DNA from: Streptomyces misionensis
GTDB taxonomy: Bacteria > Actinomycetota > Actinomycetes > Streptomycetales > Streptomycetaceae
Direction of reading: 5' to 3'
DNA: 64,000 nt
NCBI RefSeq assembly: GCF_900104815.1
Contig: NZ_FNTD01000004.1
Location: forward strand, 2,496,501-2,560,500
Shown here: piece by piece, positions 32,250 to 35,408 of the stretch
Numbering within the stretch: the first letter of the stretch is position 1
How the letters are laid out: each line of letters begins with the position of its first letter
The notes under the pieces: generated by a model
Seen by the model: the letters and a program-made list of their open reading frames with translations, nothing else
Databases searched by the model: none
Told to the model about the DNA's origin: nothing
Program-made: the position numbers and the translations under genes

Positions 32250-32639
32250 TCAGGCGACCGCGAATTCGGAAGGGACGGCGACTCCGGCGTCGTTGGCCGC
32301 CACGACGACGTCGTGCACCACCGCCGGGTTCTGGTCTGTGCCCGTCTGCGCCAGCAGGTCCCAGACGGTGCTGCCGGTCGCGGCCAGCAGACACCCGGCG
32401 ACCGCGCCGGCGTACGCGGCGGCCGTGACGGCCCCCGCTTCCGCCGCGACGGTGCCGAGCCCGGTGAATCCCGCCGCTTCCAGCGCCGTCAGCGTGACGT
32501 CCGTTCCCCCGGCGAGCTCGGCGGCGTTGTGGAACTCCTCAAGGAAGTGAAGCACCTCTTCGGCAGAGGTCAGCGCCTCCGCGGGCGTCGGCAAGCCGGC
32601 GCCGTGCATGCAGAACGTGAACTCGCTCTCGAAACTCAT
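32250..32639 (-). CDS. Small Ala-rich hydrophobic protein, last gene of the collagen/oxygenase operon
   Basis: 129 residues; ATG 32639 follows AAAGGAACGCC. Not recognised. N-terminal third is acidic and helical ([20 protein letters not shown], residues ~24-43). The middle is a Gly/Ala-rich hydrophobic stretch ([20 protein letters not shown], then [14 protein letters not shown]) that could be a membrane-inserting hairpin or a packed helix bundle. The end is [19 protein letters not shown]. There is no signal peptide. It starts 54 bp after the collagen-like gene on the same strand and ends the operon. Third-position base use is less G/C-biased than in the neighbouring core genes. A helper, anchor or immunity-like role for the collagen protein is possible but unproven. 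Confidence 0.75.
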
Positions 32640-32693
32640 GGCGTTCCTTTCTCCACCCCTCCGGATCTCGTCCCCCGTTGCCTCATGGGCGAC

Positions 32694-33671
32694 TTACTCC
32701 TCCAGCTTCCGCTCGAAGCCGTGTTCTCCGGGTTCTCCGGGTCCTCCGGGCTCCCCAGGTCCTCCGGGTTCTCCGGGTCCTCCGGGCTCCCCAGGTCCTC
32801 CGGGCTCCCCAGGTCCTCCGGGCTCCCCAGGTCCTCCGGGTTCTCCGGGCTCTCCGGGTTCTCCGGGTTCTCCGGGTTCTCCAGGTCCTCCGGGTTCTCC
32901 GGGCTCTCCCGGTTGGCCGGGCTCTCCGGGCTCCCCTGGTTGTCCGGGCTCCCCAGGCTCCCCCGGTTGGCCGGGCTCCCCGGGCTCGCCAGGTTCTCCG
33001 GGCTCCCCCGGTTCTCCAGGCCCCCCAGGCTCCCCCGGTTGGCCGGGCTCCCCGGGCTCGCCAGGTTCTCCGGGTTGCCCTGGTTCTCCCGGCTCTCCCG
33101 GTTCGGACGTGGCCTCAATCGCGTTCACGGCAGTCGTGACCGTCTCGGCGGACTGCTGCATGGTGGTGTCGGCAACGGCGACGGCCGCTGCGAGCGGAGC
33201 GGCACCGCTCAGCCCCAGGAGGGCGCCTCCCAAGTCGACCGCCACGCGGCCGATCGCGATGAACGCGTTCACGATCGCGCTCAGCGCGTCAGCGATGGTC
33301 GAGGAGTTGCTGAGGTTGACATTGCCGATCGCATTGAATGCGTTCTCGACCGCGGTTTCCGCGTCCAGCGCGTGTTGGAGTATCCCGGATGCCGCGGTGG
33401 TGAGGACGTTTCCGTTCTTCGCGAGCGAGCTCTGCAGATCTTGGACGCGGGCCTTCACCTCCTGCATCGACTTCCCCTGGGAAATCGAACTGAATACGTT
33501 CGACAATGCCGTACCGATGTCGGTGACCCGTGGGTCGGTGACGCCTTGAGCGGCCGATCTGATCTGACTGGAGAGCTGGCCGGACTGGTTCAACTGGTTC
33601 TGGATCGCTTGCGCCTGAGGCTCCGGAACGGGGACCTCAAACAGCGCCATGCTGCCGTTTCCGTTGGACAT
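32694..33671 (-). CDS. Collagen-like protein with 41 Gly-X-Pro triplets
   Basis: 325 residues. ATG 33671 lies nine bases after AAAGGAGG; the GTG three codons earlier is too close to the RBS. Residues 1-~188 form a non-collagenous, Ala/Gln/Asn-rich helical region, with [20 protein letters not shown] at the front, coiled-coil-like helices ([15 protein letters not shown]) and a hydrophobic patch near [20 protein letters not shown]. Then 41 uninterrupted triplets follow, only GEP, GQP or GGP, closed by GEH and FERKLEE. Proline is always in Y, never X. A trimeric collagen helix is expected, nucleated by the N-terminal part. No signal peptide or sortase motif is seen, so location is unknown. It lies 45 bp after the SDR gene and downstream of a prolyl-hydroxylase-like gene. 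Confidence 0.9.
32730..33098 (-). repeat. Tandem 9-bp collagen-coding repeats
   Basis: 41 consecutive 9-bp units (369 bp) coding for GEP, GQP or GGP. Higher-order blocks are visible: alternating GEP-GGP near the C-terminus, and GEPGEPGQP blocks nearer the N-terminus. Unit number is likely to vary by slippage between strains. Confidence 0.92.
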
Positions 33672-33716
33672 GTTCCACACCCTCCTTTCTTTCTCGTATC
33701 CAGGTCGAGCATTACT

Positions 33717-34448
33717 CTATTTTCGATCGACCACTCGGACCTCGCCGGTGGCGGATCCGGAATCCAAGTCGCACACCGTCGCGAGCACCTGCTCGACGCT
33801 GACGATTGCCGGAAAGGTGTTGGGGGCGACGACATTCACCCGGACTCCCGCCGGTCCGAGCTCTGACGCCAAATGCCGGCTCGCCATGATGAGCGCCGCT
33901 TTGCACGAGCTGTAGCCGAGCTGGCCCAAGTCGGGATACACGTGGAGAGCGGCGACCGAGGACAGGTTGATGACATTCCGACGGGAACGTCGGTTCTCCT
34001 CCGGCGTCGACTGCCAGGATTGCCGGTACACTTCCACGGCCACCTGGAGAGGCCGCACGGCATTGAGGGTAAATTGATAAGGGAGACGTTCGAGAAAATC
34101 GACCGAGGTGGCGGGGCCCAGATCGTAGTGCACGGCGCCGTTGACGATGAGATCGATATGCCCGAAGGCCGCAAGGGCGAGTTCGGCGATGCGCTCGGCA
34201 CTGTCCGGAGTGGCCAGGTCGGCGACGATCGGATAGAAATAGGTCCGCATGTCGGGGGATTGATGCGCCGGAGCGAGAGGATCGACCACCCGTTCCTGGT
34301 GCCGCACGATGCCGTCGCCGTCTTTGTGGTACACAGCGGCGATGCGATAGCGTGTGCCGAGGTAGCGGCAGAAATTCCGCCCCAGTCGTCCTCCGGCGCC
34401 CAGCAGCAGACATACCCTCGTGTCATCCGGGGATTGCTGGTCGGTCAT
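33717..34448 (-). CDS. SDR-family oxidoreductase in the collagen/oxygenase operon
   Basis: 243 residues. ATG 34448 overlaps the stop of the oxygenase gene (ATGA), so its translation is coupled. SDR features: VCLLLGAGGRLGRNFCRYLG (glycine-rich cofactor loop, unusual GAGGRLG), DLIVNGAVHY in the place of NNAG, NVINLSSVAALHV with catalytic Ser, LGYSSCKAALIMASRHLASE with Tyr-x-x-x-Lys, and VRVNVVAPNTFPAIVSVEQV. The active-site residues are all there, so it should be a working NAD(P)-dependent enzyme. Tied to an Fe/2OG oxygenase, it might oxidise or reduce a hydroxylated side chain, or process a small-molecule partner. It is not close to the two SDR proteins at 26-28 kb. Confidence 0.85.
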   Translation of the reverse strand: MTDQQSPDDTRVCLLLGAGGRLGRNFCRYLGTRYRIAAVYHKDGDGIVRHQERVVDPLAPAHQSPDMRTYFYPIVADLATPDSAERIAELALAAFGHIDLIVNGAVHYDLGPATSVDFLERLPYQFTLNAVRPLQVAVEVYRQSWQSTPEENRRSRRNVINLSSVAALHVYPDLGQLGYSSCKAALIMASRHLASELGPAGVRVNVVAPNTFPAIVSVEQVLATVCDLDSGSATGEVRVVDRK

Positions 34449-35230
34449 TTCCGCTGCCCTCTCAGCCACGGCACGATCGCCTTTTCGCCCCACCGGGCCA
34501 CCGCGTCCTCCTTGGGACGGTGCCACCACATGATCAATGAATTGCGTGGCACACGGCTCTCCAGGTAGGTGTGAAAAGACCGAGGCGTGCACTCGAATGC
34601 GAGCAGCGCATTGTCCTTCGGAGGGGCCACGAGGAAAGGTTCCGCGACGGGGCCCGTCCTGTCGAGATACAGTCCTGTTTCGCCCCCGTTCCCCGGAACC
34701 CACGGCCCGTTGTGCAGGTAGTAGAGGAGCGCCACGGCGCGCACCCGCTCCACTACCTCCAACCCGGCTTCCCCGGTCTCACCGAACCGGTAATCGCAGC
34801 GTGAGGGATCCGAGAGATTCACGGCGGAGTCAGGCGAATCCTGGGGCCGGGCCGGGAACCAGCCTGGATTGAGGTCATTGTGTATATGGCCGCTTCGGGC
34901 GCCCGGCTCGTGATGATGCAGGCTCGCATCCACGTCGCATGTGAGAGGTGCGTCGAAAACGGATGACATCAGCCGGCGGAACTCCGCGGAGAAGAAGATG
35001 TCGAAGGCTCCCCGGTAGCCCGGACGGAAGCCGTGCCCTGTCGCCTCGAAGCCGCGCATGTTCCGCTCGAACCCGTGCCCGCCGGACGCGTCGAGGAGGT
35101 CACCCAGTTCGGCTGTCAACTGCTCGTGCAGCGCTGGGGTGAAAACGCTGTCCGCGAGGACGTGGCGGAAGGGGAACGTGCGTACCAGCCAGCGGCGACC
35201 GCAGAGAGAACGGTTTAAATCGGTATGCAT
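34445..35230 (-). CDS. Fe(II)/2-oxoglutarate-dependent oxygenase, prolyl-4-hydroxylase-like
   Basis: 261 residues, ATG 35230 after GAGG. A jelly-roll dioxygenase pattern is visible: SLHHHEPGARSGHIHNDLNP carries the facial triad H117-x-D119; YLHNGPWVPGNGGETGLYLD resembles the prolyl-4-hydroxylase strand pair ending in GGET; PRSFHTYLESRVPRNSLIMW gives the distal His (H220) and a 2OG-binding Arg (R229). This fits the 2OG-FeII_Oxy_3 group that includes collagen prolyl 4-hydroxylases. The predicted reaction uses O2 and 2-oxoglutarate to hydroxylate a substrate, giving succinate and CO2. It is the first gene of an operon whose third gene makes a collagen with only Y-position prolines, so that protein is the obvious candidate substrate. 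Other substrates (free amino acid, small molecule) remain possible. Confidence 0.87.
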   Translation of the reverse strand: MHTDLNRSLCGRRWLVRTFPFRHVLADSVFTPALHEQLTAELGDLLDASGGHGFERNMRGFEATGHGFRPGYRGAFDIFFSAEFRRLMSSVFDAPLTCDVDASLHHHEPGARSGHIHNDLNPGWFPARPQDSPDSAVNLSDPSRCDYRFGETGEAGLEVVERVRAVALLYYLHNGPWVPGNGGETGLYLDRTGPVAEPFLVAPPKDNALLAFECTPRSFHTYLESRVPRNSLIMWWHRPKEDAVARWGEKAIVPWLRGQRK

Positions 35231-35408
35231 CGGAGTACCTCGCCTCGAACAAGCGCGAGCGAGTAGATGCAGGAAGAAGCTCTGTAATCACTGTCTTGCG
35301 GTACTGGCGGATTCGCAAGTCGTAGGAGCTGGTCGCCAATCACATCGACAACTGCCCTTTTACAGACAGGAGTTGACGGACAGTCCGACCGACGTTCGAG
35401 GACAACCC

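Follow-up and report, generated by a model that had tools for sequence, protein, structure and literature searches.

Hydroxyproline is described as beyond the reach of most bacteria, and bacterial triple helices are thought to form mostly without it (PMC8968730). In a 64,000-nucleotide stretch of the Streptomyces misionensis genome (the window), a gene for a prolyl-hydroxylase-like oxygenase shares an operon with genes for a short-chain dehydrogenase/reductase (SDR), a collagen-like protein and a small hydrophobic protein. Does this oxygenase hydroxylate the collagen encoded beside it, and do the four genes form a dedicated collagen-maturation cassette, as a reading of the sequence alone had proposed? 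We propose, with moderate confidence, that a mobile oxygenase-SDR module hydroxylates prolines in repeat tracts, that the SDR most likely oxidises the hydroxyl, and that this collagen is the substrate here.

The oxygenase resembles peptidyl prolyl hydroxylases

The oxygenase matches PF13640 with 27.8 bits (cut-off 27). Its iron ligands H117, D119 and H220, together with R229 of its 2-oxoglutarate (2OG) motif R229-x-S231, are invariant in the 120 relatives listed for the alignment, from 123 found, which bears out the HxD...H triad and arginine first seen in the window; S231 is kept in 104/120. The iron triad and the RXS motif are those of prolyl hydroxylases. The putative substrate arginine, R164, is kept in 119/120 relatives and aligns with an arginine of 4nhx, 6t8m, 6iuq and 6ey1, at the place where, by sequence alignment, protein prolyl hydroxylases have the arginine that contacts the substrate carbonyl. 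By its motif we take R164 to occupy the position of Arg322 of PHD2, a protein outside the alignment. Arg322 binds the carbonyl of the substrate proline in PHD2 (PMC4396695). The predicted model of the oxygenase adopts the double-stranded beta-helix fold of these enzymes: 47 of the 50 structural matches listed, which come from re-alignment of the Foldseek top 1000, are prolyl hydroxylases, and the best is OGFOD1.

A more specific assignment did not hold. Three residues before the HxD histidine (H-3), Tyr310 of PHD2 exemplifies the prolyl 4-hydroxylases (P4H) and Leu152 of OGFOD1 the prolyl 3-hydroxylases (PMC4396695). The present oxygenase carries a glycine, G114, at H-3, which is invariant in 30/30 relatives; it has neither the P4H tyrosine nor the leucine of the OGFOD1 type, and the P4H-specific label was dropped. 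Of the earlier description as P4H-like, the likeness to prolyl hydroxylases stood and gained the predicted fold and R164, and the label itself fell with the signature tyrosine. Judged from its residues and its model, the oxygenase appears to be a hydroxylase of peptidyl prolines.

The conserved unit is an oxygenase-SDR pair

The oxygenase and SDR genes are adjacent in 56 of 57 loci (24 non-Nocardia and 33 Nocardia), a count that leaves out the loci of the four closest oxygenase relatives (60-78% identical, P0002-P0005). This pair is the conserved unit and the SDR, which had been assigned no part in the sequence-only reading, the conserved partner. The dedicated four-gene cassette of the sequence-only reading, for which co-occurrence in other genomes had been named beforehand as the check, was not borne out: the four genes were found together in no locus read. 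We rejected it as a conserved unit for these loci, as a collagen-type run of at least 8 triplets lies beside the pair in 0/55 of them, the pattern matching only two Gly-rich stretches (L029, L059). Loci L065 and L069 have no Gly-X-Pro tract by the fixed tract patterns, and the nearest approach to a collagen run is a proline-rich protein of L016, with sub-threshold PPE/WXG100 matches and a single run of six triplets that start with Gly, GPP accounting for five. Oxygenase relatives are rare within the family. Strong matches were confined to the own genome and G328 in overlapping family-level draws of 200, 392, 394 and 323 genomes, with two further weak matches near 1e-3, and a class-wide draw of 394 genomes gave the own genome and two already in the set; as profile searches scored 6-8 candidates per genome, these absences are not airtight.

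The SDR matches PF00106 and keeps the active-site residues N129, S163/S164, Y179 and K183 of the SDR superfamily. The classical subtype has the glycine motif TGxxxGxG; the present family reads TGxxGxxG at positions 16-23 (T16 in 56/57; G17, G20 and G23 in 57/57; the window SDR has Leu at position 16), and the classical label was dropped. In the SDR model only eight residues separate the strand ending at 209 from the helix starting at 218, a connection at which related SDR enzymes have substrate-loop helices. On the model, so short a connection hints that the site is open and would take a large substrate rather than a small metabolite.

In the proposed reaction the oxygenase, using Fe(II), 2OG and O2, would hydroxylate prolines in repeat tracts, and the overlapping SDR would then most likely take this hydroxyl on to a ketone, giving oxoproline, with NAD(P)+ as the oxidant. 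The oxygenase might also act alone, making stable hydroxyproline that stabilises the triple helix as in animals, with the SDR having another role, for example in the supply or recycling of a cofactor, in the reduction of a side product oxidised too far, or in making a sugar for O-glycosylation of hydroxyproline. That the Y prolines of the collagen are the animal P4H site, that the Bacillus anthracis P4H favours Y (PMC8968730), and that the gene after the pair in L024 has sub-threshold glycosyltransferase matches all fit this alternative, as does L055, where an oxygenase and a proline tract occur with no SDR hit. We nevertheless regard it as unlikely, since the SDR is nearly obligatory and its short 209-218 connection suggests, on the model, a site open to a large substrate. 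In favouring the two-step reaction we infer that the tract prolines are what is modified and that the collagen is acted on here; most of all, we infer the oxidation by the SDR and the carbon that is hydroxylated (C3 or C4).

On a Methylobacterium oryzae plasmid, genes for type I secretion and for a long calcium-binding repeat protein precede an unannotated oxygenase (L065:7001-7723), which lies directly upstream of an annotated SDR.

Proline tracts lie near the pair in part of the family

Proline tracts were scored with a fixed pattern within about 6 kb of the pair, a strong tract being 18 or more residues long. Strong tracts occur in 9/24 non-Nocardia loci, and any tract in 11/24. Among 34 distinct random control stretches (579,730 bases; 36 drawn, two of them duplicates, G1032 = G1060) the corresponding counts were 0/34 and 1/34, and no tract was found at a further 15 PF13640 sites, from six of the genomes that supplied the loci (185,089 bases). 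The 34 controls comprise one stretch from a Nocardia genome, two from the own genome, two from G328 and, for the remainder, stretches of the genomes in which 15 of the 24 non-Nocardia loci lie. Fisher's test gave p values of 1.2e-4 against the 34 and 1.3e-5 against the combined set of 49, which serve as guides since the loci are not independent. Some loci had been suspected of tracts before the pattern was fixed (L010, L029, L049, L059 and L067/L069). Without the four seen beforehand the count is 6/20 (p 3.2e-4), and without all five, L059 included, 5/19 (p 1.1e-3), both against the 49. All tract counts leave out the poly-proline open reading frames (ORFs) of L017 and L020 and a (VTPGH)n protein of L018, noticed afterwards.

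The tracts belong to diverse proteins. Beside the pair of Trebonia (L010) is an (EP)n protein with the motif GPGEPGEP, and in G328 an (EP)n protein overlaps the oxygenase. The methylococcal locus (L012, Methylococcaceae) has (GPDPGP)n and a radical-SAM-like gene, L014 has (GPTP)n, and Mesorhizobium (L024) has (TP)n at the start of its contig. Tracts of (GPTP)n and (GPVP)n are found in the Nocardioides-type loci L025, L029 and L059. L049 has (HPVP)n and (SP)n, carried by one protein of the pro-kumamolisin type and one that is unassigned, and a Phenylobacterium protein with a sub-threshold trypsin-like match has (GPTP)n (L055). The repeats thus differ, from (GPTP)n, (GPVP)n, (EP)n and (SP)n to (GEP)n in the window, and proline is their sole common residue. 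Because the tracts share no other residue, a common enzyme would, most simply, act on proline. As a pointer to the collagen prolines as the site, this weighs more than the presence of the collagen itself.

Several observations, besides the glycine at H-3 and the SDR-less locus L055, weigh against the proposed reading. None of the 33 Nocardia loci has a proline tract within about 6 kb, and because of this the tract link is valid for part of the oxygenase family only; with Nocardia included, the comparison becomes 9/57 against 0/49 (p 0.003). Outside Nocardia, 15 of 24 loci show no strong tract, some of these being on short contigs, and a looser measure of proline density does not discriminate (15/24 against 14/36). 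PF13640 also holds free-amino-acid hydroxylases such as the L-isoleucine hydroxylase HilA (PMC3684760), and ranks 7, 9 and 10 among the structural matches fall to the non-prolyl oxygenases PasI and PolD. The tract-free Nocardia loci, HilA and the PasI and PolD matches would all suit a pair that modifies a non-proline residue, a free amino acid or a small molecule, its nearness to tracts reflecting some other shared property, such as secreted or mobile low-complexity genes. We hold this to be distinctly unlikely, given that R164 is common to protein prolyl hydroxylases and not to PolD, that the other PF13640 sites lack tracts, and that the tracts have only proline in common.

Hydroxylation of this collagen appears to be the likeliest reaction, because the oxygenase resembles prolyl hydroxylases in sequence and model and its family lies near proline-repeat proteins beyond the controls. 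The earlier claim that the oxygenase hydroxylates the collagen has become more likely through the predicted fold, R164 and the tract excess, although its regiochemistry is unproven and the P4H tyrosine is absent. The collagen is probably one instance among the likely targets of a broader module.

The collagen operon of the window

The four genes lie on one strand with the overlap and gaps originally reported (Table 1). The substrate here would be the collagen encoded directly downstream of the pair, whose tract has proline at the Y position only. An N-terminal part of about 190 aa precedes the tract, in which 43 triplets are Gly-led; 41 of them, confirming the first count, are Gly-X-Pro (28 GEP, 8 GGP and 5 GQP), and GEH and then GFE close the run. 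With this uninterrupted Gly-X-Y tract and a PF01391 match of 61.3 bits (cut-off 27.2), the protein belongs among collagen-like proteins. Its N-terminal part gave no homologue in a weak search that also missed the protein itself (6606 candidates, none scored). The start codon is most plausibly an ATG ending at 33671 and preceded by AAGGAGG. An antisense ORF (32608-33549, plus strand) is open opposite the collagen gene and, because of the Gly-X-Pro codons, reads as a collagen-like GSP/GPP protein; the minus-strand frame is preferred on three grounds: its ribosome-binding site, its place in the operon and the way GC is distributed over codon positions in the N-terminal part.

Table 1. Features of the collagen operon (positions in the window)
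Feature	Position	Strand	Remarks
Small hydrophobic protein gene	32250..32639	-	129 aa; 54-bp gap after collagen gene
Collagen-like protein gene	32694..33671	-	325 aa; 45-bp gap after SDR gene
Gly-X-Pro tract, proposed substrate	32730..33098	-	41 uninterrupted triplets; calculated coordinates
SDR gene	33717..34448	-	243 aa; 4-bp ATGA overlap with oxygenase gene
Oxygenase gene	34445..35230	-	261 aa
Presumed promoter region, intergenic, upstream of oxygenase gene	35231..35408	-	

A promoter/terminator scan of the intergenic region upstream of the oxygenase gene found no sigma-70-type match. The GC content of the operon is 0.63-0.71. At third codon positions (GC3) it is 0.71-0.77 in the oxygenase, SDR and collagen genes and 0.84-0.985 in four neighbouring genes, and this difference suggests a foreign origin of the three; the small gene has a GC3 of 0.885. 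A phage or viral origin was rejected, as no relative was found in phage records or in viral_contigs, where 8 stretches matched a pattern and 0 were confirmed.

The small hydrophobic protein, which the sequence-only reading had counted as a cassette member, is not demonstrably linked to the oxygenase. Its family gave 14 hits, of which the six named are all from Streptomyces or Kitasatospora and share no named strain with the oxygenase hits, few of which are named. A search of 238 genomes returned the own copy and two weak 25-bit matches, and one of 43 genomes the own copy alone. The own genome also holds a degenerate copy of the 3' end of the small gene with downstream DNA (G000:C4:70268-70372, L145; 92.5% identical over 147 bp), at about 70 kb on C4, the largest contig, and close to one of its ends.

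The strains of the named small-gene hits, the degenerate copy and the differing GC3 of the small gene could mean that collagen and small gene were already paired in Streptomyces when the oxygenase-SDR pair landed upstream of them by chance, the collagen not being its substrate. This we judge improbable: the GC3 of the collagen gene is as low as that of the pair, which it follows by 45 bp, and the Trebonia neighbour carries GPGEPGEP beside its own pair.

In three further loci of the same genome with collagen-like ORFs (L146-L148), nothing within about 5-6 kb matches the oxygenase or the SDR. One of them encodes a protein read as chaplin-like, with a (GHP)n stretch (L148:5651-6505, minus strand), likewise with no oxygenase or SDR match nearby.

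Other neighbours of the pair

Elsewhere the same pair would act on different proline-repeat proteins, of which some belong to type VII secretion loci and others to clusters resembling those of ribosomally synthesised and post-translationally modified peptides (RiPPs), where a sulfotransferase would often be added. EccE is encoded in L016 and EccB in L018, with EccB relatives in L016 and L025. Relatives of Stf0-type sulfotransferases occur in 10/24 non-Nocardia and 0/33 Nocardia loci, a count without a random control; Pfam confirms Stf0 in L024, L047 and L055, and in L014 a sulfotransferase relative shares one reading frame with an oxygenase. In Microvirga (L017), a radical SAM methyltransferase matches TIGR03975 with 660.6 bits (cut-off 281.9), and Planobispora (L020) has a 56% identical relative. 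L017 and L020 are apparent RiPP clusters with polyproline cores. For the window, a tblastn search (E 1e-3) with the L017 radical SAM, methylase-like and Stf0 proteins and six other context proteins gave no match in the 64 kb, and the window does not qualify as a RiPP biosynthetic cluster.

Tentatively, the pair may be a portable module that turns the prolines of repeat proteins into oxoproline and so puts many ketones on collagen-like, (GPTP)n-like and polyproline chains; these ketones (or the hydroxyls formed on the way, sulfated where Stf0 is present) would be there for cross-linking or conjugation.

Further genes were noted around the pair. In L017 and L020, poly-proline, leader-like (precursor-like) ORFs (L017:2722-3645, which holds an assembly gap of N, and L020:2964-3614) lie just upstream of a tetrapyrrole-methylase-like gene with NCBIfam matches below cut-off; both loci further carry an Stf0-type sulfotransferase, the oxygenase-SDR pair and a radical SAM C-methyltransferase. 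Subtilase relatives, read as mycosin-like, are near the pair in L011, L013, L016, L018, L025 and L045, and L016 and L018 also encode proline- and glycine-rich proteins. In the 33 Nocardia loci (between L021 and L064), a protein of ~790-870 aa, read as LPG-synthase or flippase-like, lies near the pair in 32, and an SGNH-esterase-like gene in 31.

Significance and comparison with known systems

With an enzyme that resembles prolyl hydroxylases, is linked to its operon neighbours and belongs to a family found to track proline-repeat proteins in two phyla or more, native proline modification in bacterial structural proteins can be tested directly. Its SDR partner, being nearly invariant, points to a further step that was not expected. 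Recombinant collagens could in addition be hydroxylated or tagged with ketones by the new enzymes that would result. If true, the oxoproline module would be a bacterial counterpart to the cross-linking of animal collagen and the glycosylation of plant hydroxyproline. Among the matches listed from the open-access literature, we recognised no report of an oxygenase-SDR pair with proline-repeat or collagen proteins.

OGFOD1/Tpa1, PHD2, the P. putida P4H and collagen P4H share with the present oxygenase the predicted fold, the iron triad, the 2OG arginine with RXS and the substrate-carbonyl arginine. The present oxygenase differs from protein prolyl hydroxylases in the glycine at H-3, in its invariant H105 and H107 and in its near-obligate SDR partner, and PDB sequences give only remote profile matches to it. 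The P4H of B. anthracis is likewise bacterial and linked to collagen-like peptides, hydroxylating synthetic (PPG)n peptides with preference for Y prolines (Schnicker and Dey 2016, in PMC8968730). The present oxygenase is operon-linked to a collagen and paired with an SDR.

In plants, the hydroxyproline-rich glycoproteins (extensins and arabinogalactan proteins) are proline-repeat substrates of prolyl hydroxylases that are subsequently decorated. They resemble the present targets in their proline-repeat tracts, an analogy for which we claim no evolutionary link; there the decoration is arabinan or arabinogalactan glycosylation, whereas here an SDR and a sulfotransferase accompany the oxygenase. 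L-isoleucine dioxygenase and 4-hydroxyisoleucine dehydrogenase (5gwr) also work as a pair, in which a 2OG oxygenase hydroxylates and an SDR oxidises the product to a ketone, as proposed here, but their substrate is a free amino acid.

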